Source: a bacterium (GTDB lineage: Bacteria > Desulfobacterota > Desulfocorpusculales > Desulfocorpusculum). Taken from it: a stretch of 64,000 bases of DNA. Below are positions 22,030 to 39,938 of this stretch, piece by piece. Numbering within the stretch: the first letter of the stretch is position 1; each line of letters starts with the position of its first letter. The stretch is taken from positions 266,661 through 330,660 of the forward strand of contig JBBFLE010000002.1 of NCBI GenBank assembly GCA_037481695.1, read 5' to 3'. The position numbers were made by a program, and so were the translations under genes. The notes beneath the pieces were generated by a model. It saw only the letters and a list, made by a program, of their open reading frames with translations, was not told the DNA's origin and did no database searches.

Positions 22030-22046
22030 TTGCGGGAGTTGTTGAA

Positions 22047-25000: not shown

Positions 25001-25274
25001 TAAGGTTCTCAAATCCATGGGAGAGGGCGAGCCTTTGCCCATAGCCAAGATAGGCCCCAGGGACTTCTTCGGAGAAATGGCTCTGTTTGATCACGGGCCC
25101 AGATCCGCCACCGTGAGGGCTGATTCCAGAGATGGGCTTTTGCTCAGGCTGGAGGGAAATGCCTTTCATAGGCTCATGGCAGAGCATCCTGGAATTCCCA
25201 TTGCCATATGCGCGGAGCTGAGCAGGCGCATGAGGGCACTTCATCAAAAGCTAAGCTACAGTGAAACCCATTAG
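22047..25274 (+). CDS. Nucleotide transporter (NTT/MFS)-like membrane protein fused to HEAT repeats and a cyclic-nucleotide-binding domain
   Basis: 1075 residues from the GTG at 22047, chosen because GGGAG lies 8 bases upstream and because the product then starts LLQRVFRVYPEEWR, a pattern I associate with the ATP/ADP-antiporter-like family. Longer in-frame starts (TTG 21876, ATG 21900) lack ribosome binding sites. Residues 1-420 hold about 11-12 membrane helices with the NTT-like segments ILYWDILNDMFTTRQSKR and LITAGGILGTTLGSVFTG. Residues 440-930 are alpha-helical HEAT-like repeats. Residues 950-1070 are a cNMP-binding domain whose phosphate cassette FGEMALFDHGPRSATV retains the Glu and Arg that hold the nucleotide. 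No DNA-binding helix follows. This suggests a transporter gated or sensed through a soluble cNMP arm. The transported substrate is unknown. Confidence 0.82.
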   Translation: MASLLQRVFRVYPEEWRLLVWVTLIQLAMRVSSVLVNNYSQTAFLKRFGVEHLPTVFLVESILTFLVINAVGVLMGKYRTLPVFTGLLIFFGLCVAAIRLMIPLDIPLIYPILFILKSQAIGTLPILYWDILNDMFTTRQSKRLFTLITAGGILGTTLGSVFTGNVARWLGVDNVLWVFVVGTFLAAALNQGTERVLGTPLEPRTDRRRKKKKPKFSETIAEARVFWKQSPFLRYMVLLVAIPNMVLPILTYQFNVVVDITYGTEQDTLHFLGLFRGISNAFIFASLLFSGRLLSRWGVPNSLLLHPINYLLAFVALMFRFDILAAMYARFSTEVLKTALNNPARAILYNFFPPHTRAMVRVFLRGTVVRCSDLAGSGLLIAIKGVVLPQFLSLVAAPLVGIWILTSFLIRRNYPSMLVKVLLERQIDWERLEQIDLKAVRQDTRSVEALREGLKDPREEVTLLCAELLCLVKPPGWARWVVEALPGRSPALQEKLLASLPKDESTLEVISLMENMLARSDSQLLGALLEAIARLAPDSSYPIFKQYLNHSDPVVRIQAMAGILAGRSQEGISECRRLMRELLDSGQGPKIKMALEVLARSADPSFSQEVHGWASSEDPEFRSLALRALARSCDPELLELASQAMKHPNETVRRAAAEMMASCGEKVPVATWISLMGDEDPQVRSMARQAVRGRADAARELIIALASPSRRVRQEALVLLDEMEAKPVEVSQFVKEQIQRAYTLIAAALWVRASGGGLSADLLSQHLLETSRSVQETVLRVISVQGGGEGMHVLLRALGSTERREVEDALEALESFLNPGVRKLLIPLLENIPLEEKLSLARKRLRIPDPKRISEQELASLLQAEEDPVTRALAVYFFGEMKDQPMDRDTLQAFFPESDPMVREAYQSLSKAESPSKALGGEGGSLSLMEKADYTRKVPIFSSLLVRDLFAVAGIMVEYSCRPGEAVVSEGEPGEALFLVVRGEFKVLKSMGEGEPLPIAKIGPRDFFGEMALFDHGPRSATVRADSRDGLLLRLEGNAFHRLMAEHPGIPIAICAELSRRMRALHQKLSYSETH

Positions 25275-25275
25275 T

Positions 25276-25311
25276 CCGCATTGGCCCCTTCACAAGCAGT
25301 GGAAAATGCGG
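25276..25311 (+). terminator. Possible stem-loop after the transporter fusion gene
   Basis: CCGCATT (25276-25282) and AATGCGG (25305-25311) are exact inverted repeats with a 22-base loop, starting 2 bases after the stop codon. No T-run follows, so termination is only a possibility. Confidence 0.25.
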
Positions 25312-25422
25312 GTTAGACTGATGATATCTTCTCGTTAGTGGATTTTTGCTCCAAGGAAGCCTGATTCTCCCGATCTGGTCCTTTCCCGCTGTGGGCTGAA
25401 AATAAGGAAAATGTATTGGGGC

Positions 25423-25441
25423 TTGGGGGCATGATGCCCAA
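25423..25441. terminator. GC hairpin between convergent genes
   Basis: The sequence reads TTGGGGGCATGATGCCCAA; the core GGGCAT-G-ATGCCC is a perfect palindrome with flanking TTGG/CCAA. It lies between the converging transporter fusion (plus) and SUMF1-like gene (minus) and resembles the hairpins at 4893 and 10020. Confidence 0.35.
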
Positions 25442-25469
25442 CCTCACCCATCCTGGGAAACAATCTTTT

Positions 25470-26318
25470 CTAGTCCAGCTCTCTTACCAGTCTAAAGCCA
25501 GTGGTATTGTATCTGCTGGCTGGATGAGCCCAGGTGCGGTTGGCCGAGCGGCCAAAGGTGGCGTATTTGAACCAACTGCCGCCTCGCCTTACCTTGAAAG
25601 TGCCTTGTGCAGGGCCCTGGGGATCGATTAGCTCATCCTGGGGATAAGGCCCGTACCAATCCTGGCACCACTCCCACAAGTTGCCGTGCATGTCGTAGAG
25701 TCCCCAAGGGTTTGGAGCATAGGAGCGAACAGGGGCCGGAGAACCAGCCTTGAGGCCTCTGGCCAACACCTCATTGAGACATCTGGCCACTCCTCTTCTG
25801 GGGTTGTTGCTGAACATGCCTCTTGTGCAATCAGGGGAATCCCCCCAGCTAAAGGCAGATTTGGTTCCTGCTCTGCACGCATACTCCCATTCGGCCTCTG
25901 TGGGCAGCCTGTAAATACCCTCTGCCCTTTTGTTGAGAGCCTCCAGGAATCTGGCCACATCGTTCCAGGAGACCCTCTCCACTGGGCAGTTGTCCCCGCA
26001 GTCCTTGAAGAAAGAGGGATTGGAGCCCATCACTGCCCTCCACTGGGCCTGGGTTACTTCTGTTTCTTGCATGAAAAAGCCACGACTCAGTCTCACCAGG
26101 TGGGGAGTCTCATCAGGGTTCCTGAATTGCTCCTTCTCGGGGCTGCCCATGATGAAACTTCCCGGGGGGATCTTGATGAAGTCCATGCCCAGCGAATTCG
26201 TAAATCTCTTTTTTTCCAATTTGCTTTCCTGTGCAGCTCCTGCTGGGGGAAACATCATTACTAGGCACAAGATCATGAGTCCCACTATTTTCAGTTCTTT
26301 TCCCGACCCTTTCTCCAT
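25470..26318 (-). CDS. Secreted SUMF1/formylglycine-generating-enzyme-like protein
   Basis: 282 residues. The ATG at 26318 opens a signal peptide (charged start to residue 11, hydrophobic GLMILCLVMMFPPAG, cleavage near AGA-AQ). The mature part is one FGE-sulfatase/SUMF1 domain: NSLGMDFIKIPPGSFIMGS, ETEVTQAQWRAVMGSNPS, YRLPTEAEWEYACRAGT, WGLYDMHGNLWEWCQDWYG and RRGGSWFKYATFGRSANR. True formylglycine-generating enzymes have two active-site cysteines just after the GGS motif; here that stretch has none, so sulfatase maturation is unlikely. A binding or other extracytoplasmic role is more plausible. It is 155 bases downstream of treY on the same strand; a link to trehalose is unproven. Confidence 0.85.
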   Translation of the reverse strand: MEKGSGKELKIVGLMILCLVMMFPPAGAAQESKLEKKRFTNSLGMDFIKIPPGSFIMGSPEKEQFRNPDETPHLVRLSRGFFMQETEVTQAQWRAVMGSNPSFFKDCGDNCPVERVSWNDVARFLEALNKRAEGIYRLPTEAEWEYACRAGTKSAFSWGDSPDCTRGMFSNNPRRGVARCLNEVLARGLKAGSPAPVRSYAPNPWGLYDMHGNLWEWCQDWYGPYPQDELIDPQGPAQGTFKVRRGGSWFKYATFGRSANRTWAHPASRYNTTGFRLVRELD

Positions 26319-26473
26319 CTCACTTCCCGCCCCAAAAGAATTAAAGGAGCCTTTGATTTTCAGAGCTGCTCCATCGAGTCCTACCCTCTCACCAGGTACT
26401 TTTCTTCTGCTTTCTTTGCAAGGGTTCCACACCTTTTGTCATCTTGCAGGACAGACATTTTACTTGGACTCTC

Positions 26474-29275
26474 TCAATGACCTGCGACTGCCAAACCCAC
26501 AGGGAAGCGTGAAAGTACATCGCCCACGTAGAGCAATCTGTCCTTTGCTTTGGCTCGAGTCACTCCGAGAATTTCCTGCCATGAGCTGGGGGCCTCTGCT
26601 GGGAGCAAGATAGCAGTGTCCAACCAGACATCCTTTCCTAAAGGAAACTCCGGAGCTGTTACCACCTGTGTCAGCAGTCTCGGAGCCACCACTAAAGCCC
26701 ATTTCTCTTTCCATCTCCTGGCAAAGCAAACCAAGTTGGCATGCCAGATGCCTTGACTCTCCAAGGGGATATACTCCCCATCTAGGAAGAGCTTTGAATT
26801 GGCCTGTCTCAATACCAACACCTTGTGGATAAGAAACAGCTTTATGCGTCCGTCTTCTTTGCTCTCCCGGAGTTCACGGATGAGTAACTCTGGGTCCTCT
26901 CTTGCGATCCGCTCCCTTATCTCAGACAAATATTGCTTCCTCAACTGGAAGTCAACCGGCCGACGGTTGTCTGGGTCTACCAGGTTCAAATCCCAAAGCT
27001 CGCTCCCCTGGTAAAAATCCGGCACCCCAGGTGCAGTCATCTTTAGCAATGCCTGAGATAAAGAGTTCAAGGCACCGTAGTGCGCAATTCTCTTTTGGAA
27101 CGGCAAGAAAGAAGTCAAAAACGGATTCTGCTTTCTGGGCTCCATGATCTTGTCTAAGAAGCCAAGGAATGCAGCTTCGTACTGTTCGTCTGGCTTTAGC
27201 CAGGCCGTGTGCACCTTGGCTTCTCTGACAGCCTTTACGAAATATGTCTTTAGCCTTTCCAAGAAATCCGGGATCTCTCTCTCAAAAAAAGGAAAAGCCC
27301 CTATCAAGGTCTGATAAAGGAAGTACTCATCGTTTCTATCGGGCACGGGCTTTTTTTTCACCTGTACTTTTTTACTGGAATTGATTCGACTCCAGAGGCG
27401 AACATGCTTTTCCCACTGATCCGGAATCTCCGATAAAACGTTGAGCCTGGCCCTCACGTCCTCCCCTCTTTTTGTGTCGTGGGTGGAGGTTGCATTCAAT
27501 GAGTAGGGCCATAGCGAAAAACGTCTGGCCAAAAAGTCATGAAATTCATTCACTGAGATACCGAATCTCTCAGGGAAGCCCCCTACTTCATTGAGGGAAA
27601 CGAAACGGTTATATACATAGAACGCCGTGTCTTCCAGCCCCTTGGCCATCAAAGGTCCGGTGAGCTGTTGGAAGCGCATTACGAAATGCCATCCTTCTTC
27701 CTTGTTTTCTTGGGAAGCCTCTTCTCCCCAATCCTGCAAAAGGAACCTTTGAATGAAAAGAAGCTCATGAGAAAGGGCAGGATTGGACTCCAAAGCCCTT
27801 TCTATTGCCCAACGCACGTACTTTTCAGGGCTTGCAGAGCAGTTGCCCGGACTCATATAGGTCCGATAGACCGGGAAGTGAGCCATGACCTCCACCAAGG
27901 CACGCCTCAGTCCGTAGAGGGTAAGGTCACTGCCGGACCGCATTCTACTGCAGGCCCCTTTTAGCAAGCGTGCCAGATTGTCAATGTCTCCGGCCATGTG
28001 CTTTCCTGTTATGAGCCTTTTTTTATCGCAAACCAGTGCAGCATACTCCACTTCCGTGCCTGAGAAGTTTCTGTATAGCTTGTCCATCACAGCACAGTTT
28101 TCACTTTGGCAAAACAATCCATTGAGCATGTTCAAGAAGTCGTAACCTGTGGTTCCCTGAATAGGCCAGGACTTTGGAATTTCCTCACCGAAGGCCAGGA
28201 TTTTCTCCACCACCACAAAGGCCCCTTGCACTCTTTCACGAAGCCTAAGCAGATACCTTTCTGGATCGTAAAGTCCATCCAAATGATCTACTCTCAGCCC
28301 CGTGATCTGGCCGTGTCTCAGCAACCAGAAGCAAAGCTCGTGTACTTTTTCGAAGACCTGCTCTTGTTCCACGTGCAGGCAGATCAGATCATTGATGTTG
28401 AAAAACCTTCTATAGTTGATCTCCTCTGAGGCGACCTTCCAAAATGCCAGCCTGAAGAACTGCTCGGCCAGAAGTTTTTCCAACAGCCAGAAACTGGAAC
28501 GATCCCCCGGATCCCCATTGAAAGCTTCCAAATTCCTGTGCAAAAATTCCCTCACCGCACCATTGGTCTGGTAGATCTCCCAAAGAATGCGTTTTACAAA
28601 ACGAACCTGATTCTTCCTTTGCTCCACATGGTTTGCATCGGGAAGTGTCCCAAGGGCGTATAATATGCCTAGAATCTTTAGAAAGTCCGGGTGTTCCTCA
28701 CCCAGGACTCCTTTGAGTCTATCTATGTCATGGGAAAGAATGGTGGAGTAGGACTCTAACCGAACCGGATAGGACTGTTGGAAGTAGCTGACCCAGAAAC
28801 CCCCATCTTTGTATTCCAGCCGGATATCCCCGGCCTCCAGGCACTCTCCGTAAAATTGCCCCAAGAAAGGAGCCAGGATTCGCCCTCGGATTCCTTCATA
28901 AGAATGTTCCCAATCCACATCAAAGAAACCAAAATACTCAGAGGCCTGCCCGTTCTCCAGCACATCCATTAACATTTTGTTTTCTTTGTCAAAAGCCATG
29001 TGATTGGGAACTATGTCCTGCAGCCAGCCCATCTGCCTCTTTCTTACTTCATGCAGGAGCCTACTCAAAGCGCTTTGCCCACCAAGCTCGGGGTTGATCT
29101 CCTCGTGATTAACCACATCATAGCCATGCTCGCTCCCTGACCTGGACCTGAATATGGGAGAAGCGTATATGTCTGAAATACCAAGTTCCTGCAGGTAGTC
29201 CAAGCAATTCCCCAAGGCCCTGAAATCAAACCCAGGAGAAAACTGGATGCGATAACATGCAATGGGAATCTTCAT
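26474..29275 (-). CDS. treY: Maltooligosyl trehalose synthase TreY
   Basis: 933 residues, GH13 family. It converts the reducing end of maltooligosaccharides to an alpha,alpha-1,1 linkage. The N-terminal start YRIQFSPGFDFRAL, SDIYASPIFRSRSGSEHGYD and LQDIVPNHMAF are typical of TreY. The catalytic region shows LRVDHLDGLYDPERYLLRL (nucleophile Asp in RVDHLDG), FVVVEKILAFGEEIP (acid/base Glu) and TSTHDTKRGEDVRARLN. The C-terminal PGVPDFYQGSELWDLNLVDP is also family-typical. The ATG has AGGAGGAAGGG upstream. It is the last trehalose gene in the run starting at 37503. Confidence 0.95.
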   Translation of the reverse strand: MKIPIACYRIQFSPGFDFRALGNCLDYLQELGISDIYASPIFRSRSGSEHGYDVVNHEEINPELGGQSALSRLLHEVRKRQMGWLQDIVPNHMAFDKENKMLMDVLENGQASEYFGFFDVDWEHSYEGIRGRILAPFLGQFYGECLEAGDIRLEYKDGGFWVSYFQQSYPVRLESYSTILSHDIDRLKGVLGEEHPDFLKILGILYALGTLPDANHVEQRKNQVRFVKRILWEIYQTNGAVREFLHRNLEAFNGDPGDRSSFWLLEKLLAEQFFRLAFWKVASEEINYRRFFNINDLICLHVEQEQVFEKVHELCFWLLRHGQITGLRVDHLDGLYDPERYLLRLRERVQGAFVVVEKILAFGEEIPKSWPIQGTTGYDFLNMLNGLFCQSENCAVMDKLYRNFSGTEVEYAALVCDKKRLITGKHMAGDIDNLARLLKGACSRMRSGSDLTLYGLRRALVEVMAHFPVYRTYMSPGNCSASPEKYVRWAIERALESNPALSHELLFIQRFLLQDWGEEASQENKEEGWHFVMRFQQLTGPLMAKGLEDTAFYVYNRFVSLNEVGGFPERFGISVNEFHDFLARRFSLWPYSLNATSTHDTKRGEDVRARLNVLSEIPDQWEKHVRLWSRINSSKKVQVKKKPVPDRNDEYFLYQTLIGAFPFFEREIPDFLERLKTYFVKAVREAKVHTAWLKPDEQYEAAFLGFLDKIMEPRKQNPFLTSFLPFQKRIAHYGALNSLSQALLKMTAPGVPDFYQGSELWDLNLVDPDNRRPVDFQLRKQYLSEIRERIAREDPELLIRELRESKEDGRIKLFLIHKVLVLRQANSKLFLDGEYIPLESQGIWHANLVCFARRWKEKWALVVAPRLLTQVVTAPEFPLGKDVWLDTAILLPAEAPSSWQEILGVTRAKAKDRLLYVGDVLSRFPVGLAVAGH

Positions 29276-29400
29276 TCAATGCCCTTCCTCCTGATCCCAT
29301 TTTTTCAGGTGGACAAGACCTGCCAGCGCCTCCCAAAGCCTCAATCTGCTTCGACTCAAGGTGCTGTCTCTTCACAATTATGCTCCTCCATCCGCCCCCA

Positions 29401-31836
29401 TCAGCCTACCTTTATGCCCAGCTTGGAAGCCACTGTTTTCCAAAGCGCTAAGGCGGATGAAGCTCTTTGGTCACCCCGGTTCCTCATGAGCTCCAGGCCT
29501 GGAATCTCTGAACGGATGGACCTGTAGCATGAGTTTTGCACATCCCATAGATCCGCCTCTATTGGCATCATTTCCAAGACATCCAACACAGCCAAAAAAC
29601 GCTCCAAGAGCTCCAGGTCCATCGGATCCTTTTCCAACCTTCTTGCCATTTGGGAAAGAGCATGACCGATCTCGTAGCCCAAACCACTTCCATCTAGGCT
29701 GACACCGCTGGAGTGAGCATCCTGGATCACCGTCATCATGGTGGACGGATCCAATGACAGAGAACGAAGCATGTCTCTTAAGGTCCCCTCCAACGACATT
29801 CTGGAAGCAACAACAAAGGCCTCAGGAACCGGGTAGCTAAGCTCTCTTAGAAACCTTATGAGTGGTGCATTCCTCTGGTGGATTTGACGGTAAAGAGACC
29901 CCGCCTCTTCCAGGTTCACCTGGAGAATCTGGGCGGTAATCTTCCTTTGCTGATCACGAAAAAGGGAGCGCAAGGAGTAAGTTGACGTCCCAAAGTGGGC
30001 GTCTATGTTACGGATGGTTCCGGGAAGATCAGCCATGGAAAAATGGTCTGTTACATCTTTAACCATCCGGGAATACGCCTCTTTGCCTTGGAATTTGCGC
30101 ACGCCACCCCAAATATTGTGATCGCCCAGGTGCATTACCCCGAAGCTCAGGTTTTGGGACTCCCCGGTTATCAAAGATCCCACCCTGATCTTCCCCACTG
30201 CCAGCCTGGTTGTTCCCACTTGCAAGACCCTCGAGTCTTCTTGGTCCACTGAATAGCAAAAGATCCTATCGGACTTCTTGTAACTTTCAAAAAGGGAACT
30301 AACCGCGTAATGTGCTCCCACGTTGAGCAGATCCACCCGCACGGGCCGAACCATTTTTTCAAAGACTGCCCGACCGTTTCCCTTGTCGGGCAGGTTGCTG
30401 CGGCACCTTTCCAAGAGCTTTAGAAAACCTTCTTCCAGGCCGTTGCTCTCCAACTCCTCTGCTAGCTGTAGGGCTCGATCAGCATATTGAAGGATTTGGA
30501 CCGTTTCCAAGCCTGAAATTTCGGAGAAAAACCACCCGCAGCTTGTGTACATGAGCATTGAATGACGTTGCATCTCCAAAAGCTTGATGGCCTCTACTCG
30601 CTGGGAACGTCCCGGGGAATCAATACAATGCTCTCTTAGAAAACGGGACACATTGGAGGGAGATCGGTCCAAAATCACTCTGATATATTGATCTCTGGCC
30701 TCCCACGGATCTCGAAACAGTTTTCGTCCCCTGGTTTCGAACAGCTTGGCCAATTCATCCCGAAGCCAATCCAAGGCCTCTCTTAAGGGTTCCCTCCATT
30801 GCTGGTTCCAGTCTTCTGGTCCTCCGGCCCGGCACCCGCAGTCAGAACGCCACCTCTCAATCCCATGGGCACAACTCCAGGAGGTGTTCTCCAGAATTTC
30901 CACTTCCCAGGCAGCGGGATGTCTCTCCAAGAACTCCCCGTAATTGGTCAAACGAGCCAGTTTATGGGATTGGATATAGTGTAGAGCATAAGCCAAAGCC
31001 ATGTCTCCCCTAGGATGGTGATGACCGTAGGACTCACCGTCGGTGGCTACACTGACCAGCTGGGCTCGTTTTCTTTCCTCAGAAAACCCCTCTAGTAGTC
31101 TTCTTACAAAAAACTCCCCGTTGGAAAGAATTCCTTCGAAGGCTACTGCCTTGGAGATAGGGCCGTCGAAAAAGAAAACGCTGATCCGTTTTCCCGAAGG
31201 CAGGTTAACCCTGTAAGCCATGGTTGGATCAATTCTCTCCCCCCTCACATCCAACCATTCTCCCCCACCCAAAGGCCTGATCCTAGATGCCTGAGACGGG
31301 GCCAATACAGTGAACAAGATCCCCTGGTCTGCAAGAATTTCCAAGGTCTCCAGATCCACTGCTGTCTCGGGAAGCCACATCCCTTCCGGCTCCCTTTGGA
31401 AACGGTGCTGGAAATCGGCTATACCCCAGAGGATTTGTGTGCGTTTGTCCCTGGAATTTGCCAGAGGCAGTATCATGTGGTTGTAGGCGTGGGCAAGGGC
31501 GCAGCCGTGGCCCGAGTAATTCCACCTGGAGTCTCTATCCCCGTCCAGTACGGCCTGGTATACCTCCGGTTCCTCCCTTTCCATCCAAGCCAAAAGCGTG
31601 GGTCCGAAATCCAAGCTCATGCGATTGTAATTGTTGACTAGCTGCTCAATGCGTCCTTCCCTGTCCAGGATCCTGGCCGCAGAGTTGGGAGCGTAACACT
31701 CGGCAGTGATTCTTTGATTCCAATCATGATAAGGGTGCGCCGAGTCTTGCACCTCCACAGCCTCTAACCAGGGATTTTCTCTAGGAGGCTGGTAAAAGTG
31801 TCCATGAATGCAAATGTACCTCTCATTCATGCTCAT
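29401..31836 (-). CDS. GH57-family glycoside hydrolase, DUF3536 type
   Basis: 811 residues. The GH57 conserved regions are visible: region 1 CIHGHFYQPPRENPW at residues 9-23, a region 3-like GMWLPETAVDLETLEIL with the probable nucleophile Glu, and a region 4-like SVATDGESYGHHHPRGD with the probable acid/base Asp. The long helical C-terminal part (about 450-811) corresponds to what I recall as DUF3536. GH57 enzymes act on alpha-glucans (amylase, branching or pullulanase activity). Lying between treZ and treY, and with no treX debranching gene nearby, it may supply or trim maltodextrins for TreY. It overlaps treZ by 14 bases. Confidence 0.88.
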   Translation of the reverse strand: MSMNERYICIHGHFYQPPRENPWLEAVEVQDSAHPYHDWNQRITAECYAPNSAARILDREGRIEQLVNNYNRMSLDFGPTLLAWMEREEPEVYQAVLDGDRDSRWNYSGHGCALAHAYNHMILPLANSRDKRTQILWGIADFQHRFQREPEGMWLPETAVDLETLEILADQGILFTVLAPSQASRIRPLGGGEWLDVRGERIDPTMAYRVNLPSGKRISVFFFDGPISKAVAFEGILSNGEFFVRRLLEGFSEERKRAQLVSVATDGESYGHHHPRGDMALAYALHYIQSHKLARLTNYGEFLERHPAAWEVEILENTSWSCAHGIERWRSDCGCRAGGPEDWNQQWREPLREALDWLRDELAKLFETRGRKLFRDPWEARDQYIRVILDRSPSNVSRFLREHCIDSPGRSQRVEAIKLLEMQRHSMLMYTSCGWFFSEISGLETVQILQYADRALQLAEELESNGLEEGFLKLLERCRSNLPDKGNGRAVFEKMVRPVRVDLLNVGAHYAVSSLFESYKKSDRIFCYSVDQEDSRVLQVGTTRLAVGKIRVGSLITGESQNLSFGVMHLGDHNIWGGVRKFQGKEAYSRMVKDVTDHFSMADLPGTIRNIDAHFGTSTYSLRSLFRDQQRKITAQILQVNLEEAGSLYRQIHQRNAPLIRFLRELSYPVPEAFVVASRMSLEGTLRDMLRSLSLDPSTMMTVIQDAHSSGVSLDGSGLGYEIGHALSQMARRLEKDPMDLELLERFLAVLDVLEMMPIEADLWDVQNSCYRSIRSEIPGLELMRNRGDQRASSALALWKTVASKLGIKVG

Positions 31837-33667
31837 GCACTTCCTCGAAAACCACCATCCCCTGCGAGGGAAGCTTTAGGCAAACCTCTCCTGGTGATTC
31901 CAATTTAGAAGGGATGGAGCTTCCAGGCCCCATCCACCTGATTTCCCAGGAGTCCATGCGTTTGAGCCAGATGCCTTTTTTAAACTTGACTGTGGCCTCA
32001 CCGGCCTCCTTGCCGAAATGGTAGATCCTTCTTACCTGTCTTCCCCGTGCCCAAGAATCCAGAATAAGAACTTCCTCAGACACAAGTTCCTTTGTATCCC
32101 AGCAAGGCTCTTCTTCCCCAGAAAGAAGCTCTTTTCTGAGTCTCACCAGCTCCTTGTAGAACCTCAAGAGCACGGCGCAAGATCCCTTGAATTTTCTTTG
32201 GTGTTGGAGCCTGGAGCTAAAGAAAGTAGCCTCCTCTTGGGGATCGGCTATTGTCCCGCCCCATCTGAAAGCCGAGAACTCCTCCTGACGTCCCTTGCGT
32301 ACCGACTCGGCCAGGTTCGGATCCCCGAAGCTTGTAAAGTAGAGAAAAGGCGCTGTCTCACCGTATTCTTCTCCCATAAAGAGAAGGGGCACAAAAGGAC
32401 AGAGCAACACAATCCCTGCCGCCAGTTTCAACCTTTCGAAGTCTACCAAAGAACTCAAACGTTCCCCAAGCATCCGATTCCCCACCTGGTCATGGTTTTG
32501 CGAAAATACCACCAGGTTGTGAGGCTTCATGCCTCGGCTGGGGCTTCCGTGGCGGCGTTGCCTGTAGCGGGAGAATCGGCCCTGATAAACGAAACCTTCC
32601 CTGAGACTCTTGGCCAGGTCTCGAAGGCGCCCAAAGTCTATGTAGTAGCCAGACCTCTCCCCGGTCAACAATGCATGCAGGGCATGATGGAAGTCATCGT
32701 TCCACTGGGCATCAAATCCGAGCCCTCCTGCCTCCCTTGGTTTGACCGAACGGGAGTCATTCAAGTCGCTTTCAGCTATTAACTGAATGCTTCTGCCCAG
32801 AGCTTGAGCACGACGTCTAACCCAGCTTGTAAGCTCTTGCAGAAACAACCTGGCTGAGAAATCCATCATTCCATGAATGGCATCCACCCTTAGTCCATCC
32901 AGGTGATACTGGGTGACCCAGAAAAGGGCGTTCTCAATCAGGAACCTTCTCACCTCATCGCTTCCAGGACCGTCCAGATTGATTGCCTGGCCCCACGGGC
33001 TCTGATATTTACCCGTGAAGTAAGGCCCAAAGTCCATCAGGTAGTTCCCCTCAGGGCCCAAATGGTTGTAAACCACGTCCAGGATCACGCCCACACCCTT
33101 TCTGTGACAGGAATCCACCAACTCCTTGAGAGCCTGAGGTCCTCCGTAGCTGTTTTGAACAGCGAATAGAAATGCACCGTCGTATCCCCAGTTTCTATCC
33201 CCTGGAAACTGCGCCACAGGCATCAGTTCTATAACCGTTGCTCCCAACTCCTGGATATCATCCAGAAGTTCGATGACCCCATGGAAGGTGCCGGCCTGAC
33301 TAAATGTGCCCACGTGAAGCTCGTAAATAATGAAATCCTTCAAGCATAGTCCCCTCCATTGCTCATCCTGCCACGGGAAAAAGGGGTCTACCACCTCTGA
33401 AGGCCCGTGCACCCCTTCTGGCTGAAACTCAGAGGCCGGATCGGGTCTTTCCACCTTGCCGTCCAGTATATAGAAATAGCGCGTACCGGGTTCTGCCTCT
33501 TCCACGACGCCCTGGAAGTAACCCATGGGACGAGGCTGCAGCTCTACCACCCGCTCCCTAGGGCTGACAATATGAAGCTGCACATTCCGGGCAAAAGGAG
33601 CCCATACTCGGAAGCGACTTCGAGATTCTCCAAGATATACTCCTCCCAAACGCTTGGAAGCCTTCAT
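31823..33667 (-). CDS. treZ: Malto-oligosyltrehalose trehalohydrolase TreZ
   Basis: 614 residues, GH13. It hydrolyses maltooligosyl-trehalose made by TreY to release trehalose. The N-terminal CBM48-like domain has FRVWAPFARNVQLHIV. The barrel shows DIQELGATVIELMPVAQFPG, NWGYDGAFLFAVQNSYGGP, VVYNHLGPEGNYL, LRVDAIHGMMD (nucleophile Asp), LIAESDLNDSR (acid/base Glu) and FSQNHDQVGNR. Length is normal (about 600). The ATG has AGGGGAGCAGCAGTT upstream and overlaps the stop of the MscS gene by 4 bases, while its own stop overlaps the GH57 start, so all three are likely translationally coupled. Confidence 0.95.
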   Translation of the reverse strand: MKASKRLGGVYLGESRSRFRVWAPFARNVQLHIVSPRERVVELQPRPMGYFQGVVEEAEPGTRYFYILDGKVERPDPASEFQPEGVHGPSEVVDPFFPWQDEQWRGLCLKDFIIYELHVGTFSQAGTFHGVIELLDDIQELGATVIELMPVAQFPGDRNWGYDGAFLFAVQNSYGGPQALKELVDSCHRKGVGVILDVVYNHLGPEGNYLMDFGPYFTGKYQSPWGQAINLDGPGSDEVRRFLIENALFWVTQYHLDGLRVDAIHGMMDFSARLFLQELTSWVRRRAQALGRSIQLIAESDLNDSRSVKPREAGGLGFDAQWNDDFHHALHALLTGERSGYYIDFGRLRDLAKSLREGFVYQGRFSRYRQRRHGSPSRGMKPHNLVVFSQNHDQVGNRMLGERLSSLVDFERLKLAAGIVLLCPFVPLLFMGEEYGETAPFLYFTSFGDPNLAESVRKGRQEEFSAFRWGGTIADPQEEATFFSSRLQHQRKFKGSCAVLLRFYKELVRLRKELLSGEEEPCWDTKELVSEEVLILDSWARGRQVRRIYHFGKEAGEATVKFKKGIWLKRMDSWEIRWMGPGSSIPSKLESPGEVCLKLPSQGMVVFEEVHEHE

Positions 33668-34767
33668 AACTGCTGCTCCCCTGGAGCTTGGGTCTTTACG
33701 TTTTTGGTGGTCCCCCCACTGGTCTCCAAGACTGCTCTTGCCTTGGGTAAAGCCGAAGGATGCTTTGACTGCAAGTAGGCCAACAGCCTCTCCCGCACAT
33801 GGCAGCGAAGGTCCCAGACTCTGGAGGAGTCGGATGCACTAACCAAGGCCCTCAATTCCACAGTCCGTTCCGTGGCATTTGTCACTTGCAATGAACAGAC
33901 TTTTCCGTCCCACAGATCTGTCCCTTTTGCAATCCTTAGAAGCTCCTCCCTGAGGGAAGCCACATCCACAGTGTAATCAACGTAAATCAATACTGTCCCC
34001 AGCAGGTCAGCAGAAACCCGTGTCCAATTCTGAAAGGGTTTTTCCACGAAATGACTGATCGGTACAACAAGCCTGCGCAGATCCCATATTCTTAGCACCA
34101 CATAGGTAAGGGTGATCTCTTCCACCCTTCCCCACTCTCCCTCCACCACCAGGACATCATCTATCCGAAAAGGCTGTGTCATGGCAATTTGCAATCCAGC
34201 AAGCAGGGTAGATATGGTACGCTGCGCGGCAACACCCAGGATTATGCCTGCTATGCCTGCAGAGGCCAGGATGCCGGTGCCCAGCTGCCTTACCTTTTCG
34301 AATGTCATGAGGCCGCTCGCCAAGGCCAGCACCATCAGGACAACCGCCACCACCCTCTTGATGATTCTCACCTGGGTCTGCACTGCCCGTGCCTTAAGGT
34401 TGTCCCTGACCGAGATGTCATACTTGTACAGAATCCAGGACTCCACGGCGTCTGTCATTCGAAACCCAAGCCATGCCAAGCATGATATGGTCAGAAGGGC
34501 CAAGACCTGTGAGGCAAAATCTCTGAGACTTTGAGGCAATCTAATCAGAGGGAAAACTAGGGAAAGACCTAAAACCGGGCCCAGAGCTTTCAGTGGGTTT
34601 GAGCAGATCTGAACTACCAAATCATCCAGACGCGTCTGGCTCAGGATGGAGACCCTCTTGCCTATTTTCAACAAGACAATGGCCCCTATCCATCCCCCCA
34701 TTAAGGCTGCTGCCGCCAGGGCTACTGAATCTACCCATTCACTAAGCCATGGCCAGTTCCAGGACAT
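33664..34767 (-). CDS. MscS-family mechanosensitive channel
   Basis: 367 residues from the ATG at 34767 with the strong site GGGGAGGG 5 bases upstream. Four to five N-terminal membrane helices lie between about residues 14 and 165. The pore-lining helix and following beta domain are recognisable as TGILASAGIAGIILGVAAQR, the MscS helix with regular G/A spacing, and then STLLAGLQIAMTQPFRIDDVLVVEGEWGRVEEI. The C-terminal domain is cytoplasmic. Such channels open on hypo-osmotic shock and release small solutes. Its position inside a trehalose gene run, overlapping treZ, suggests a role in releasing trehalose or other osmolytes. Channel specificity cannot be told from sequence. Confidence 0.92.
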   Translation of the reverse strand: MSWNWPWLSEWVDSVALAAAALMGGWIGAIVLLKIGKRVSILSQTRLDDLVVQICSNPLKALGPVLGLSLVFPLIRLPQSLRDFASQVLALLTISCLAWLGFRMTDAVESWILYKYDISVRDNLKARAVQTQVRIIKRVVAVVLMVLALASGLMTFEKVRQLGTGILASAGIAGIILGVAAQRTISTLLAGLQIAMTQPFRIDDVLVVEGEWGRVEEITLTYVVLRIWDLRRLVVPISHFVEKPFQNWTRVSADLLGTVLIYVDYTVDVASLREELLRIAKGTDLWDGKVCSLQVTNATERTVELRALVSASDSSRVWDLRCHVRERLLAYLQSKHPSALPKARAVLETSGGTTKNVKTQAPGEQQL

Positions 34768-34921
34768 AAATACCCTCCCCTTCCAAGAAGTGTTCTTCCT
34801 GGCTCTAACCAATAGGCTCTTTCTTTACCAGCTCTAGCCGAACAGGGTCCCCTTAATCCTGCATCACAAAGTCCCGTCTTGGGCTTTGCATCCTGAGACC
34901 CAAATTCTTCATGGACTCAGA

Positions 34922-36202
34922 TCAAACCTCTATGAGCCGGCTGCCAGGGTTTTCCAAAAGGATCAGTAAGGTAAGATAGTCTCTTATATTGCGCGTTATC
35001 AGGAAATGCCTTCGCACGAATTCCTTGCCTATCTTGCCCATCTCCCGGGCCAATTCAGGCTTTCTGAGCAGATAACGGATTCTGAAGGCACACCCTTCGG
35101 TAGAATGTACCAGGAAACCTGTCTGATAATCCCTCACCTGAAGAACTATACCGCCTACAGCACCGCCGATCACCGGCTTTCCTTTCCACATGGCCTCCGT
35201 GACCGTCAGTCCGAAACCCTCTCGAATTGATTTTTGAACTATGATGTCAGCTGCCCGCTGCAGGGCGTTGACCTCAAGATGGCTGTCCGGTGGAAGCATC
35301 AAAACCTGAATGTCCGGTTCACCCTGGGCCTCTTCCATGACTCTAGCAAAGATTCTAGGACCTTCCGGGTCGTCTGTGGCCTCTCCACCTACCAGAACCA
35401 GCTTGCAAGGGGTATGTTTCCTGACCATGCGAAAGGCCTGGATCACACCCACTGGGTCCTTGAAGGAGTCAAACCGGGAAACCTGCACAACTAAAGGACG
35501 ATCCCTTTCCACTCCTAATCGGTCCATCACCCCCTGAATCTCTTCTGGGGAAAGCTCCCGGTTCTTTTGGCTCAGAGGATCAATGGAGGGATATATCAGG
35601 TACTGAGGATGTGGAAGGTTTTGGGAGAAACTGGGCATGGAAAAAACAGACGCATCATATTGCGCAACAGCTTTGCGCAGTGTACTCCAGATATGCCTGT
35701 CGGGCCTGGATATATCTATATGACACCGCCAGACCCAGTTCCTGGCCCTTCTTCGAGCATGCTCAATCAGAAAAGCAGGCTGTGGATCATGGATGACAAC
35801 AGTGTCTGCATCCCAGGCAAATCGTTTGGCGTTCTCCCGATTCACCTCCAGGTAATGTTCAATGCCTCCAGGAGGATAAGTTGCTTTGAGCCCTTGGAGA
35901 CTGTTGTGGAAAGCTTTTGTGACCTCAAAAAAGGTCTGGTCTCCCTGGATTATTTCCCAGCGGGTCTCCACGCCCAACTCATTTAGAAGTGGGACGTTTC
36001 TTTGCAACATCTCGGCCACTCCACCGCCTGTGCGAGTAGAGTTGACATGAACGAGTCTCTTTGGGCCCAAACGTTCTGCCAAGCGCTCCAGCTGGCCTAT
36101 TACCTCCTCGCCTACCAAAGGTCTGTAATCCTCAAGGGTTATTTTCGCACTTCCATGAGGGCTCTCGGCGGATCTCGCCTTGCTTCTCCGCTCATTCCTC
36201 AT
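34922..36202 (-). CDS. treT: Trehalose synthase TreT-like GT4 glycosyltransferase
   Basis: 426 residues from the ATG at 36202, preceded by AGGAGGGAAGAAC; a longer frame to 36331 has no support. TreT joins NDP-glucose and glucose to give trehalose, reversibly. Visible: VHVNSTRTGGGVAEMLQRNV (acceptor-side glycine motif), VVIHDPQPAFLIEH, WRCHIDISRPD, YPSIDPLSQKN, VVQVSRFDSFKDPVGVIQAF (donor domain start) and VQKSIREGFGLTVTEAMWKG, where the E-x7-E pattern is characteristic of GT4. The whole pattern is of the TreT subgroup rather than a generic GT4. It overlaps the DUF5752-like gene by 11 bases and is followed after 154 bases by the MscS gene. Confidence 0.9.
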   Translation of the reverse strand: MRNERRSKARSAESPHGSAKITLEDYRPLVGEEVIGQLERLAERLGPKRLVHVNSTRTGGGVAEMLQRNVPLLNELGVETRWEIIQGDQTFFEVTKAFHNSLQGLKATYPPGGIEHYLEVNRENAKRFAWDADTVVIHDPQPAFLIEHARRRARNWVWRCHIDISRPDRHIWSTLRKAVAQYDASVFSMPSFSQNLPHPQYLIYPSIDPLSQKNRELSPEEIQGVMDRLGVERDRPLVVQVSRFDSFKDPVGVIQAFRMVRKHTPCKLVLVGGEATDDPEGPRIFARVMEEAQGEPDIQVLMLPPDSHLEVNALQRAADIIVQKSIREGFGLTVTEAMWKGKPVIGGAVGGIVLQVRDYQTGFLVHSTEGCAFRIRYLLRKPELAREMGKIGKEFVRRHFLITRNIRDYLTLLILLENPGSRLIEV

Positions 36203-36869
36203 GTTCTTCCCTCCTGATAACTCCCCCCAACAGCCGGAGCACTTCTTCCTTGAGCTCCCTGAGGGAATGAAAGTACACGTCCAGGTCTCGGATTGCCGCC
36301 ACCAGATCAGATTGACCGAAATTGGATTCAATCCAGAATGAAAAATCGTCCGTTTCTTTTGGCCCTAGTCTCCATCTTGACTCCAAAAGGTGGAAGTATA
36401 TTGAGTCAACTCCCATTCTGCTCAACCCATCATAGAACTCCCCTAGCGTCCAAGCGGATATCCTGGACCTCATCACCACTGTGGCACCTTCACAGAAATG
36501 GAATTCCAAACCAGGCCGAGCCCATGGTACCCTGGGCAGATCCCAAAGGTACTCTTCTAGGATGTCTACCAGACCATGGCGCACTGTCTCCAGATTGTCT
36601 GCATCAAAAGGGTCAAAAGAACTCAATTTCTCCGCAAGTCTTATGTCCTGCAAAGCCGTAGCAGCCCAGTGTGCGAAGTCATTGGGGAATTCCAGTCTGG
36701 GTTGAAAGAGTGTCAGGCGGGACTGAAATATATGGTAAAAGAGAACAGACTCCGGAACCTCTCTAATAGCATGGAGAAGTTCACGGAGGTTCACCACGCT
36801 CAATCCAACAGGCCGAATCATCACAAAACACTCCCTGAACCAGAAGGGATTTTGTGCCCTGACATCCAT
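36192..36869 (-). CDS. DUF5752-like protein upstream of treT
   Basis: 225 residues, soluble, no signal peptide. The ATG has AAGGAGCAGACT upstream. Recognisable segments are FWFRECFVMIRPVGLSVVNL at the start, SVLFYHIFQSRLTLFQPR and NDFAHWAATALQDIRLAEKL. I associate this pattern, from memory, with the DUF5752 family, which I have seen beside trehalose or glycosyltransferase genes. No catalytic motif is evident. The 11-base overlap with treT argues for a stoichiometric partner or regulator of TreT. The function is unknown. Confidence 0.7.
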   Translation of the reverse strand: MDVRAQNPFWFRECFVMIRPVGLSVVNLRELLHAIREVPESVLFYHIFQSRLTLFQPRLEFPNDFAHWAATALQDIRLAEKLSSFDPFDADNLETVRHGLVDILEEYLWDLPRVPWARPGLEFHFCEGATVVMRSRISAWTLGEFYDGLSRMGVDSIYFHLLESRWRLGPKETDDFSFWIESNFGQSDLVAAIRDLDVYFHSLRELKEEVLRLLGGVIRREEHEE

Positions 36870-36903
36870 AGTCTGCTCCTTGCTTTTTCAGGCTCTCAAA
36901 GAC

Positions 36904-37503
36904 TCACCATCTCTTCACAGAGCCAGGCGGGATTTCTCTCAACCGCTCCTTGTAAAGCCTGGGGAGGCCTTGATACAAAGCAGTGCCCCATCTTTTCCTT
37001 TCCAGGAGCTGCTCTGTGACCTGCCCCACCACCTTGGCAGGAACCCCTGTCACGATGGACCTGGGAGGCACTTGGAATCCCTCCTTTAACACGGCCCCTG
37101 CACCCACTATGGATTCCATGCCCACCCTCACACCATCCATCAGTACAGACCCCATGCCCACAAGAACCCTGTCTTCCACCACGGCCCCGTGTATGATGGC
37201 CCCGTGCCCCACGTGGCAATCCTCACCCAGTAGCACCGTTTCTCCCGGCCTTACATGCAACACACAGTTTTCCTGAAGATTGGAGCCCCTGCCCACTCGA
37301 ATACTACCCCAATCGGCCCTGAGCACTGCACCCGGGCCCACGTAACAGTTGTCCCCCAGTTCCACATCTCCCACTATCACGGCCCAGGGATGAACGTACG
37401 CCCCATGGTGTACCTTGGGCTCTCGCTCCTCCAAAGCATAGAAGGGCATGGCCTCCCTCCTGGTCTTTAGCCTTTGATTCACCTCTTTGGGATCATAAAC
37501 CAT
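36904..37503 (-). CDS. Gamma-type carbonic anhydrase-like left-handed beta-helix protein
   Basis: 199 residues. Hexapeptide repeats form a left-handed beta helix between about residues 35 and 160 (for example VIVGDVELGDNCYVGPGAVL). The three zinc-ligand histidines of gamma carbonic anhydrases are at the expected places: His83 in ENCVLHV, and His100 and His105 in CHVGHGAIIHG. A C-terminal helix follows. Related proteins without shown activity (PaaY, YrdA, CaiE) have the same ligands, so the reaction is not certain. It is first in the minus-strand run leading into the trehalose genes (34 bases before the DUF5752-like gene) and divergent from the RNase E/G gene. The ribosome binding site is weak. 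Confidence 0.85.
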   Translation of the reverse strand: MVYDPKEVNQRLKTRREAMPFYALEEREPKVHHGAYVHPWAVIVGDVELGDNCYVGPGAVLRADWGSIRVGRGSNLQENCVLHVRPGETVLLGEDCHVGHGAIIHGAVVEDRVLVGMGSVLMDGVRVGMESIVGAGAVLKEGFQVPPRSIVTGVPAKVVGQVTEQLLERKRWGTALYQGLPRLYKERLREIPPGSVKRW

Positions 37504-37606
37504 CGAAGCCTAGCAGGCAAACCGCGCCAAGGCCCTTTCTTGGACGTGATCAAAAAGGCCCTTGCCGGAACCTCTTGTTCCTTTGCGTGCTTGGAAAAAG
37601 GCTCTG

Positions 37607-37635
37607 TTGTCATTTGATCAAGGCTGGGATAACTT
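37607..37635 (+). promoter_or_regulatory. Weak candidate promoter for the RNase E/G gene
   Basis: TTGTCA (37607-37612) and TAACTT (37630-37635) are separated by 17 bases, 52 bases before the RNase E/G start. The region is the only divergent spacer between this gene and the carbonic-anhydrase-like gene. The -10 match is poor. Confidence 0.25.
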
Positions 37636-37686
37636 ATCTGAACCCTGGCAAGCTCCTCCAGGAGAAAAAAACTTAGAAGGATCCCC

Positions 37687-39207
37687 ATGTCCAAAAAAAT
37701 GCTTATCAACGCGGCTGCTGAAGATCAGCTGAGGGTGGCCATAGTAGAAGACGGATTGCTCCAAGAAGTCGGAATGGAGACCAGCGCCCGGGGCCAGATT
37801 TCGGGCAACATATACAAGGCAGTGGTGGACAGGTTGGATGCGAGCCTCAATGCTGCCTTTGTGGACTATGGAGGGGAACGCAATGGCTTTTTGCCCGCAG
37901 ATGAGGTCCATCCCAAATGGTACAAAGGGCAGGCAAAAAGAGAAGGAAACGGCCCTCCTTCCATCCGAAAGATCCTCGAGCGCAACCAGCAAATAATCGT
38001 TCAGGTGGCCCAGGACCCAAGAGGGCATAAAGGGGCGCTTCTTACTACCTTCATCTCCTTTCCTGGGCGTTTCCTGGTACTCATGCCCTACAGAGCAAAA
38101 AACGGGGTCTCCCGCAAGATCCAGGATGAGCAGGAGCGCACGCGCCTCAAGAAGCTCCTGGACGAAATCAATCCCTCAGAAGAGATGGGCTTCATAGCCA
38201 GGACAGCGGCTGAATCCAAGTCCAAGAATGACCTGCAAAGGGAGGCTAAGGCTTTGCGCAGATTGTGGCAGGGCATAGCCGAAAAGGCCAAGAAGGCCAC
38301 CCCACCGGCTCTTCTTTACCAGGAGAGCAACCTGGCCATCAGGACCATCCGGGACTATCTCTCCCCAGACGTGGAAGAGATCCTGGTGGACGACCCCAAG
38401 CTTTTCGAGGAAATCCAGGAATTTTTTAAGGCCACCATGCCCAAGGCCGCCAAGATGGTGAAGCTTTACAAGGAGAAGACCCCGATATTCAACAAGTACC
38501 AAATCGAGGAACAGATAGAATCCATTCACTATCCCCAGGTTCGACTCAAATCAGGCGGCACCATAGTGATCACCCCCACCGAGGCCTTGGTGGCCATAGA
38601 TGTCAACACGGGCAAGACAACCCTGCGGGAGGATCCGGAAACAACCGCTTTTAAGACCAACTTGGAGGCTGCAGAGGAGATAGCCAGGCAGCTCAGGTTG
38701 AGAGATCTGGGGGGCCTGATCGTGGTGGACTTCATAGACATGGAAAACAAGAAGCACAGGGCTGAGGTGGAAAAGACCTTGAAAGAGGCCTTCAAAAAGG
38801 ACAAGGCCAGAGTCCGCATTTCCAAGATCTCCCAGTTTGGACTTCTGGAGATGTCCCGCCAGCGTCTGAGACCGCCTCTGGAGTCCAGGGCCTTTGATCC
38901 ATGCCCATTTTGCAAGGGGGTCGGGCGTGTCAAATCCCCCGAAGCTCACGCTCTGCAGGTGCTTCGCAAGATCCAGGGAGCAGCAGCCAAGAAGAACCTG
39001 CTGAGAGTCGAAGGGGAACTGCCCCAAGGAACTGGCTGGTATCTTCTCAACGAGCTCAGAAAAGATCTGGCTGAAATGGAAAAGGACTTCGGCATAAAGA
39101 TACTTTTGGATGTTAGGCCAGGAATTCCCTCCCAGGAAGCCATTCTTCGGCTATACCGCCTGAAAAAGGGAGAGGAGGGGGAGAGCATGGAGGAAATCCA
39201 GATCTGA
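37687..39207 (+). CDS. rng: Rne/Rng-family ribonuclease
   Basis: 506 residues, the size of a catalytic RNase E/G core without the long E. coli RNase E tail. An S1-like domain (about 38-130) contains GQISGNIYKAVVDRL and AFVDYGGERNGFLP. Catalytic metal aspartates are Asp305 (VAIDVNTGKTT) and Asp348 (GGLIVVDFIDM). The zinc-link cysteines Cys406/Cys409 are in DPCPFCKGVG. It cleaves single-stranded RNA in mRNA decay and rRNA maturation. RNase E and RNase G cannot be separated with confidence here; the absence of a scaffold tail favours RNase G-like. Its stop overlaps the next start by one base (TGATG). Confidence 0.93.
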   Translation: MSKKMLINAAAEDQLRVAIVEDGLLQEVGMETSARGQISGNIYKAVVDRLDASLNAAFVDYGGERNGFLPADEVHPKWYKGQAKREGNGPPSIRKILERNQQIIVQVAQDPRGHKGALLTTFISFPGRFLVLMPYRAKNGVSRKIQDEQERTRLKKLLDEINPSEEMGFIARTAAESKSKNDLQREAKALRRLWQGIAEKAKKATPPALLYQESNLAIRTIRDYLSPDVEEILVDDPKLFEEIQEFFKATMPKAAKMVKLYKEKTPIFNKYQIEEQIESIHYPQVRLKSGGTIVITPTEALVAIDVNTGKTTLREDPETTAFKTNLEAAEEIARQLRLRDLGGLIVVDFIDMENKKHRAEVEKTLKEAFKKDKARVRISKISQFGLLEMSRQRLRPPLESRAFDPCPFCKGVGRVKSPEAHALQVLRKIQGAAAKKNLLRVEGELPQGTGWYLLNELRKDLAEMEKDFGIKILLDVRPGIPSQEAILRLYRLKKGEEGESMEEIQI

Positions 39208-39938
39208 TGCATCAGAGGATCTCTCAAGGGCAGCACTGCTTCCAGGTCATGGCAGGGGGGCAGCCCCTGGCAGTTGTGCTTCAGACACCCCAGGGATGGC
39301 CTGAAGTGCCCTGCGTGGTGCTTTGTCACGGACTCTTGAGCTCCATGGAAAGCCCCAAGTTCAAGGCCTTGGCCGAGGCTCTTAACCAGGAGGGGCTTGC
39401 TGCCCTGCTTTTGGATTTCAGGGGTTGCGGGAAAAGCGGTGGAAGTCTCAAGGAAAGCACGGTCTCGGCCCGTGTGGAGGACCTAAGCACAGCTACTAGA
39501 TTCTTGGCTCAAAGCTTGGAGCACAAAGGACCCCTCGGGCTCATGGGAAGCAGCATGGGGGGGTTTGTGGCCCTTCTTTATGCTGGGATGGGAAAGGCTG
39601 TGGCTGCCATTTCTGTTTGGGCTGCCCCTTTTGACCCTCTGGAGCTGGAAGACTTGAGAACACATCCGCAAACTGCTCAGTTGGGAAATTCCTTTTTCCA
39701 GGACCTGAGATCACATGATCTTTCAAAGATCAAAGGCAAGATCAAGAATCTGCTTGTGATCCACGGGGAAAAAGACGAGCTGATCCCCATCTCCCATGCT
39801 AAGCGCATCTACCAACTAGGCTGTGCTCCCAGGCAGATGTATCTGATTGCCCAGGCCGACCACAGGTTCACCCATCCGGCGCACAGACAAGAGGCCATCA
39901 GCCTCACCGTAAAGTGGTTCTTGAGACACATGAGGTGA
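39207..39938 (+). CDS. Alpha/beta hydrolase, YqiA/BAAT-like soluble esterase type
   Basis: 243 residues. Alpha/beta hydrolase fold: oxyanion region VVLCHGLLSSMESPKF (about 37-52), DFRGCGKSGGS, nucleophile elbow MGSSMGGFV with Ser116, catalytic Asp candidate in HGEKDELIP and catalytic His in AQADHRFTHP near the end. There is no lid domain and no signal peptide. The substrate is unknown; this compact type acts on short esters or thioesters. The start is the ATG overlapping the stop of the RNase gene, so expression is coupled. Confidence 0.87.
   Translation: MHQRISQGQHCFQVMAGGQPLAVVLQTPQGWPEVPCVVLCHGLLSSMESPKFKALAEALNQEGLAALLLDFRGCGKSGGSLKESTVSARVEDLSTATRFLAQSLEHKGPLGLMGSSMGGFVALLYAGMGKAVAAISVWAAPFDPLELEDLRTHPQTAQLGNSFFQDLRSHDLSKIKGKIKNLLVIHGEKDELIPISHAKRIYQLGCAPRQMYLIAQADHRFTHPAHRQEAISLTVKWFLRHMR

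Follow-up and report, generated by a model that had tools for sequence, protein, structure and literature searches.

A probable trehalose-synthesis operon with an embedded MscS-family channel gene in Desulfocorpusculum, and the recurrence of MscS genes beside trehalose genes

Gene content and layout of the locus

The window, a 64,000-nucleotide stretch of a Desulfocorpusculum contig, carries on its minus strand the gene order DUF5752-treT-mscS-treZ-GH57(DUF3536)-treY; an FGE-like gene comes next. A preliminary description made from the letters alone had assigned treT, mscS, treZ, a GH57 gene and treY to one strand, and these identities and reading frames were confirmed by Pfam and TIGR models and by PDB matches. 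In correction of that description, the stretch at 36192..36869 (-) was found to be a gene of its own, distinct from treT, encoding a DUF5752/OrfY-family protein (PF19027, 4.5e-62).

The trehalose glycosyltransferring synthase gene treT (34922..36202, minus strand, 426 aa) most likely starts at the ATG at 36202, with a clear ribosome-binding site upstream and an 11-bp overlap with the DUF5752 gene. Its product contains the N-terminal domain (PF21269, 186 bits, 4e-55) and the GT4 domain (PF00534), and the best PDB chains in a phmmer search were 6zj4 (2.7e-125) and 2x6q (8.9e-113); it scored 400 bits against NCBIfam TreT_Thcocales, an archaeal, order-specific model with a cut-off of 775. The genes treZ (malto-oligosyltrehalose trehalohydrolase; 31823..33667, minus strand) and treY (malto-oligosyltrehalose synthase; 26474..29275, minus strand) encode proteins that exceed the curated cut-offs of their equivalog models (TIGR02402, 714.7 bits versus 538.8, and TIGR02401, 914 bits versus 499) and match PDB entries 1eh9 (8.6e-163) and 5zcr (5e-133), respectively. 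Between them lies a gene (29401..31836, minus strand) for a protein that combines GH57 (PF03065, 1.4e-18) and DUF3536 (PF12055, 4e-118) domains with an HGHFY motif. Of the two synthesis routes proposed earlier, that of TreT may not be a purely synthetic sugar-nucleotide route, because its best PDB match, 6zj4, carries the name "trehalose phosphorylase/synthase"; both its direction and its donor are putative. Every trehalose-synthesis gene found in the genome sits at this locus: no TPS, further TreY/TreZ or TreS candidate was found in the genome, and the only other GH13-type matches were two weak, adjacent ones on C5.

The mscS gene (33664..34767, minus strand) most likely starts at the ATG at 34767, a TTG at 34812 having been set aside, and encodes a full-length channel subunit of 367 aa. 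It carries the beta-domain signature (PF00924, 51.6 bits versus a cut-off of 20.2; 1.1e-13) and matches PDB MscS 7dlu (4e-12). The AlphaFold model (pLDDT 88.7) has transmembrane helices leading into a long pore helix (160-197), a beta domain (205-236) and an alpha/beta C-terminal domain (255-335); five helices are predicted before the beta domain, an arrangement resembling YnaI, and Foldseek matched the model to MscS (1.6e-12) and to a YnaI chimera (5.6e-12). The protein is predicted to act as a heptameric, tension-gated channel of the MscS kind. No MscL was found in the genome, which has one other MscS-like gene, so that the locus encodes one of two MscS-family valves.

The coupling of the genes is tight. 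An ATGA at 33664-33667 is common to the mscS stop and the treZ start (4 bases), and treZ overlaps the GH57 gene by 14 bases (31823-31836), both overlaps being exactly as first described; the GH57 gene and treY are 125 bases apart. These same-strand overlaps and the clear ribosome-binding sites argue for one operon. Between treT and mscS lies a spacer (34768..34921, minus strand, 154 bp), where a Shine-Dalgarno-like GGAAGGGGAGG precedes mscS. This spacer contained no minus-strand promoter- or terminator-like match, in a scan whose counts were overall at or near the shuffled background; it is possible that mscS has a promoter of its own here, which would count against a module. A search of 24000-40000 against Rfam gave no match. 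The composition of mscS (GC 0.528, GC3 0.595) is like that of the neighbouring genes and gives no sign of a recent foreign origin.

Two genes limit the same-strand run, one divergent at 37687(+), the other convergent, with its end at 25274(+). A gene for a gamma-carbonic-anhydrase-like hexapeptide protein (36904..37503, minus strand; PF00132; highest NCBIfam scores for PaaY/CaiE/gamma-CA, short of the cut-off) opens it, 34 bp before the DUF5752 gene, and the FGE/SUMF1-like gene (25470..26432, minus strand; PF03781, 2.6e-52) ends it, 41 bp after treY. Whether either belongs to the module is uncertain. A gene 41% identical to the FGE-like gene of the window also precedes mscS in genome G041; because none was seen upstream of MscS in G296, a genus mate of G041, this sharing is treated as probably incidental.

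Related operons and linkage of MscS to trehalose genes

Four genomes of another family (G138, G045, G256 and G190) carry [DUF5752]-treT-treZ-GH57-treY in the gene order of the window but without mscS, the gap between treT and treZ being 12-50 bp. The window mscS therefore looks like an insertion, and the pathway can do without the channel, as these are the closest-matching operons. Their TreT proteins are about 70-76% identical to that of the window; in the trees of TreZ, GH57 and TreY the window has no firm position beside f7, and wholesale operon transfer from f7-type genomes is unsupported. In G300, the order is DUF5752-treT-mscS-treZ-treY, with MscS in the same position and with the same ATGA junction as in the window, although the G300 channel belongs to a different clade (its MscS C-terminal domain was detected) and no GH57 gene lies between treZ and treY. 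Thus, mscS was placed independently at the same treT/treZ spot in the two genomes, and the notion that the treT-mscS-treZ order is unique to the window genome is refuted by a locus with another MscS. As for conservation of the order in relatives, this core recurs, while the exact six-gene set with a window-type MscS was seen only in the window genome.

Across the phylum, 13 of 59 treT loci have an MscS gene no more than 5 kb from treT, against 0.56 expected (Poisson P 5e-14), the linked loci spanning 11 genera and seven families; none of 20 control stretches contained MscS. Placement of MscS beside trehalose-synthesis genes recurs across several phyla, takes many configurations and is far more frequent than chance would give. 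In the MscS tree, linked and unlinked members are interspersed, at least eight changes are forced by the starred branches, and several different clades are linked to trehalose genes. Relatives within the window clade are found as MscS-TreS-TPP/TPS (G041 and G296), TPS/TPP-TreT-MscS (two MAGs labelled Phycisphaerae, Sedimentisphaerales), TPS/TPP-GH15-MscS and, in Persicitalea, TPS/TPP-AmiA-MscS. Since unrelated MscS channels came to lie next to trehalose genes on many occasions, a functional pairing is very probable. The reading of the locus as one osmotic module, advanced earlier, is supported in part: it gains from this linkage and loses from the four operons that lack mscS. Also counting against it, 75 of the 85 tree rows of the window MscS clade lack a trehalose gene at a distance of 5 kb or less. 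In planctomycetes the link is patchy, since a search with the MscS of locus L034 yielded six more homologues and TreT, TPS, TreY/TreZ and TreS were in the 1.5-kb flanks of none; one of the six adjoins a GH15 gene.

DUF5752/OrfY proteins beside TreT and MscS

DUF5752 adjoins TreT in 89 of 90 loci. The window protein is homologous to OrfY of Thermoproteus tenax (PDB 4cso; Foldseek 1e-15, TM 0.77; hmmsearch 4e-41), which was deposited in the PDB under the title "transcription factor". Beside treT in G124, G265 and G244, MscS and DUF5752 occur in a single reading frame; all three fusions come from one family (f54), and in those of G124 and G265 DUF5752 comes after the beta domain, with no C-terminal MscS domain detected. 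The separate genes stand in the order mscS-DUF5752-treT in G055, G340, G146 and G061. This association of MscS, OrfY and TreT is the more interesting lead, and the fusion next to TreT offers DUF5752 a testable role. As a speculation considered unlikely, MscS channels and DUF5752/OrfY might form an unrecognised turgor-sensing control unit for TreT-type synthesis in bacteria and archaea, in which OrfY would be a cytoplasmic adaptor, channel-fused in some lineages, membrane tension would both vent solute and switch synthesis, and the window operon would be one of several independent assemblies.

Explanations for the operon and published counterparts

Mechanosensitive channels are usually seen as general emergency valves, encoded away from the solutes that they release. 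The probable reading of the locus is that it constitutes the cell's trehalose-synthesis operon with an inserted, ATGA-coupled mscS gene, serving synthesis under stress and release on dilution. During stress, hyperosmotic or other, TreT would make trehalose from activated glucose and glucose, its DUF5752/OrfY partner probably taking part, and TreY/TreZ would make it from stored glucan whose chains the GH57 enzyme would trim. On dilution, the co-expressed MscS would open under membrane tension and trehalose would leave with other small solutes, so that the cell need not degrade it. Co-transcription, stress induction, channel opening and the presence of trehalose among the released solutes are what we infer here.

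MscS channels are weakly selective and pass many small solutes, so that trehalose specificity of the window channel is unsupported. It is accordingly quite conceivable, if somewhat short of an even chance, that mscS is a general osmotic valve located here for co-regulation only, mainly releasing potassium, glutamate and other solutes, with trehalose incidental. The window MscS clade also has CorA Mg2+ transporter genes and unrelated genes among its neighbours, and linkage of several clades to trehalose genes is expected if any valve serves; by itself, however, a general valve leaves unexplained both the putative recurrent preference for trehalose over other stress genes and the MscS-DUF5752 fusions beside treT. 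Those fusions, the mscS-DUF5752-treT order, the near-constant TreT neighbourhood of DUF5752 and the title of the OrfY deposition would suit a scheme in which DUF5752/OrfY couples MscS-sensed tension to TreT activity or expression, making the channel turgor sensor as well as valve. For the window this is rather unlikely: its DUF5752 is neither fused nor adjacent to mscS, treT intervening, and the fusions all derive from a single family. Chance recombination, with a neutral mscS and trehalose used for storage or desiccation unconnected with the channel, is disfavoured and appears improbable. It accords with the operons that lack mscS and with the restriction of the exact arrangement to the window genome, but not with the observed excess of MscS beside TreT, the independent G300 placement with its identical junction or the intact mscS reading frame.

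Make-and-release of trehalose is itself an idea already published, and the view that such a unit was undescribed fails on T. tenax. There, a putative MscS-type channel gene and trehalose-synthesis genes (msc-gt-tpsp) were shown by Northern blots in 2013 to form a tricistronic transcript, and trehalose was proposed to be made under stress and let out through the channel on relief (Zaparty et al. 2013, PMC3634074). The systems differ in that T. tenax has TPSP and an activating GT4 protein without TreY/TreZ/GH57, whereas the window has TreT and TreY/TreZ and its genome no TPS, and in that the T. tenax channel (197 aa) resembles only the transmembrane part of MscS; what is unusual in the window is its exact gene set. 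The layout was called unique to Thermoproteales (Thermoproteus and Pyrobaculum) (PMC3634074), a claim that the bacterial loci contradict in outline. The repeated independent placement of MscS in trehalose operons and the MscS-OrfY fusion by TreT suggest that, far outside that order too, one compatible solute has its synthesis and its release arranged as a single unit.

The glucan half of the operon has a counterpart in Pontibacter sp. SGAir0037, where TreZ, a DUF3536-type GH57 and TreY are listed in that order for one locus (PMC11206854). Unlike the window, that locus has TreS, GlgE, GH77 and a branching enzyme, and the available excerpts of the report make no mention of TreT, OrfY or a channel for it (PMC11206854). 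In the same excerpts, the Pontibacter enzyme, PoGH57, acted like a 4-alpha-glucanotransferase and has an HGHFY motif (PMC11206854). This motif is also present in the window protein, which, by analogy with PoGH57, is probably a glucan trimmer of the 4-alpha-glucanotransferase type.

Gene content and genomic setting of the operon

Curated models and solved structures identified five minus-strand genes of the trehalose operon, namely DUF5752 (36869-36192), treT (36202-34922), mscS (34767-33664), treZ (33667-31823) and treY (29275-26474); the GH57-DUF3536 gene (31836-29401, minus strand) had no match in a PDB sequence search and owes its domain identity to Pfam. The gene identities of the preliminary description were thus upheld, as were the overlaps of 4 bases between mscS and treZ and 14 bases between treZ and the GH57 gene, except that the stretch reaching 36869 is the separate DUF5752 gene. 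The start codons, both preceded by purine-rich ribosome-binding sites, are most likely the ATG at 36202 for treT and the ATG at 34767 for mscS. The MscS protein is a divergent yet clear relative of MscS, and its predicted structure, with five YnaI-like helices ahead of the beta domain, matches MscS and YnaI structures.

An FGE/SUMF1-like gene (25470-26432, minus strand) follows 41 bp past treY, and a gamma-carbonic-anhydrase-like gene lies on the minus strand 34 bp upstream of DUF5752. Convergent to the operon, positions 21876-25274 (plus strand) encode a 1132-aa protein with MFS/ADP-ATP-carrier-like membrane helices, HEAT repeats and a cyclic-nucleotide-binding domain.

In this genome (G000), no trehalose-6-phosphate synthase (TPS) was found, and besides TreY and TreZ, PF00128 detected a pair of adjacent, weaker matches within 819-aa open frames on contig C5. 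No MscL was found in G000, where the only two MscS-like genes (PF00924) are the window mscS and a second within a large frame of 836 aa. Hence, all the trehalose-synthesis genes found in G000 lie in the window, as does one of the genome's two MscS-family valves. Close relatives of TreT, TreZ or the window MscS were not found in the family mates G001 and G002. MAGs labelled Syntrophobacterales and Deltaproteobacteria belong to the phylum, as MscS rows from G392, G134 and G271 match those of named records exactly; a deltaproteobacterial lineage is therefore probable.

A make-and-release model and its precedent

TreT would form trehalose from activated glucose and glucose, while TreY and TreZ would produce it from a glucan whose chain length the GH57-DUF3536 enzyme would adjust; a Pontibacter homologue acts like a 4-alpha-glucanotransferase (PMC11206854). 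When dilution raises membrane tension, solute would escape through the MscS channel co-translated with treZ. Gene identities, layout and recurrence are observed, and from them we infer co-transcription and induction of the operon, gating of the channel and passage of trehalose through it. Because TreT enzymes may be bidirectional or phosphorolytic, and the PDB entry closest to the window TreT (6zj4) is named both trehalose phosphorylase and synthase, the presence of two synthesis routes, as read from sequence, is no more than likely.

The suggestion that such a set had not been described as a unit was not supported, as the same model has been published for the Thermoproteus tenax msc-gt-tpsp operon (PMC3634074). 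Northern blots revealed a tricistronic transcript, the channel affected growth when expressed in E. coli, and the authors held the layout unique to Thermoproteus and Pyrobaculum (PMC3634074). Comparable bacterial associations are TPS/TPP-TreT-MscS in MAGs labelled Phycisphaerae and Sedimentisphaerales (L034, L035) and TPP/TPS genes with mscS-treT in G124 and G265. The window operon is set apart from msc-gt-tpsp by its combination of TreT with TreY/TreZ/GH57, by an MscS of full length and by a homologue of OrfY; we rate it a variant of the already published channel-trehalose arrangement.

Conservation of gene order and linkage of MscS to TreT

Gene order was found to be shared for the trehalose block with G138, G045, G256 and G190, all four from a single other family, and for treT-mscS-treZ with G300, of a different family. 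The four share treT-treZ-GH57 in the window's order, with treY next in the three whose contigs are long enough; their TreT proteins are ~70-76% identical to that of the window, and treT and treZ lie only 12-50 bp apart, without the channel gene. The channel is also absent from DUF5752-treT-treZ-treY in G109 and G372. The simplest explanation of these channel-free blocks is that the window mscS was inserted into a trehalose block that recurs among genomes. G300 carries DUF5752-treT-(12 bp)-mscS-ATGA-treZ-treY, with an MscS gene at exactly the window's position; since the two MscS proteins fall in different clades of the MscS tree, the same position, with an identical stop-start overlap, was taken by two different channels.

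Among 59 further TreT loci, sampled by similarity rank in a phylum search with small deviations, an MscS-family gene lay within 5 kb of TreT in 13 (G154, G055, G124, G340, G126, G253, G247, G146, G265, G244, G098, G091, G061), spanning 11 genera and 7 families. MscS gene counts in the same genomes (mean 2.3) predicted 0.56 linked loci (Poisson P = 5e-14, or 3e-8 with density underestimated threefold). Relatedness makes these genomes non-independent, and it is safer to go by the number of families, 7 of about 30. Neither MscS nor trehalose genes occurred in 20 equally long control stretches placed at fixed coordinates in genomes of the phylum. Of 15 MscS genes chosen as unrelated controls, however, 2 were also near trehalose genes, so the link is general to MscS genes of this phylum and not confined to one clade.

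The two control genes, L148 (G057) and L155 (G056), lie beside TPS/TPP or TreT genes. A 60th TreT locus, in G023, was chosen for its already-seen link and left out of the count; it has DUF5752-treT-TPP-mscS-TPS on one strand (L294:3086-7073), combining TreT and a TPS/TPP route with a channel.

DUF5752 and the MscS clade

Of 90 TreT loci in the phylum, 89 had DUF5752 no more than 1.5 kb away. The AlphaFold model of the window protein (36192-36869) is confident (pLDDT 94), and the only known structure that it matched was T. tenax OrfY (4cso; E 1e-15, TM 0.77), labelled a transcription factor by its depositors; the DUF5752 profile matched the 4cso sequence at 4e-41. Directly beside treT, DUF5752 is fused behind an MscS beta domain in a single open frame in G124, G265 and G244, all from the same family (L279:6214-7626, L259:4197-5603, L284:2-931); the G244 frame is interrupted by the contig end. 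The G124 and G265 fusions retain the membrane part, with DUF5752 after the beta domain, and Pfam found no MscS C-terminal domain in them. These fusions and the mscS-DUF5752-treT order of G055, G340, G146 and G061 provide independent evidence that channel, DUF5752 and TreT belong together. That MscS and OrfY/DUF5752 jointly sense turgor to control TreT is conceivable, though rather unlikely.

On the MscS tree, the window protein forms a group (support 92) with the MscS of G041 and that of G296, whose genes lie in MscS-TreS-TPP/TPS clusters. Elsewhere in its clade, TPS/TPP genes occur as TPS/TPP-TreT-MscS in L034 and L035, TPS/TPP-GH15-MscS in L068 and TPS/TPP-AmiA-MscS in Persicitalea (L081), and TreT/DUF5752, TreS or TPS genes are near the clade's MscS in G243, G097 and G389. 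The trehalose-linked label requires 12 changes on the MscS tree, at least 8 of them forced by well-supported branches. The link is nonetheless patchy, as 75 of the 85 rows of the clade are unlinked and six further planctomycete MscS homologues had no TreT, TPS, TreY/TreZ or TreS within 1.5 kb; one adjoins a GH15 gene.

In the G041 cluster, an FGE/SUMF1-like gene (L091:10666-11736) 41% identical to that of the window sits before mscS. Near relatives of the window MscS in the Deltaproteobacteria MAGs L032, L033, L041 and L039, a CorA Mg2+ transporter gene occurs on the same strand, and in L039 and L041 it is adjacent.
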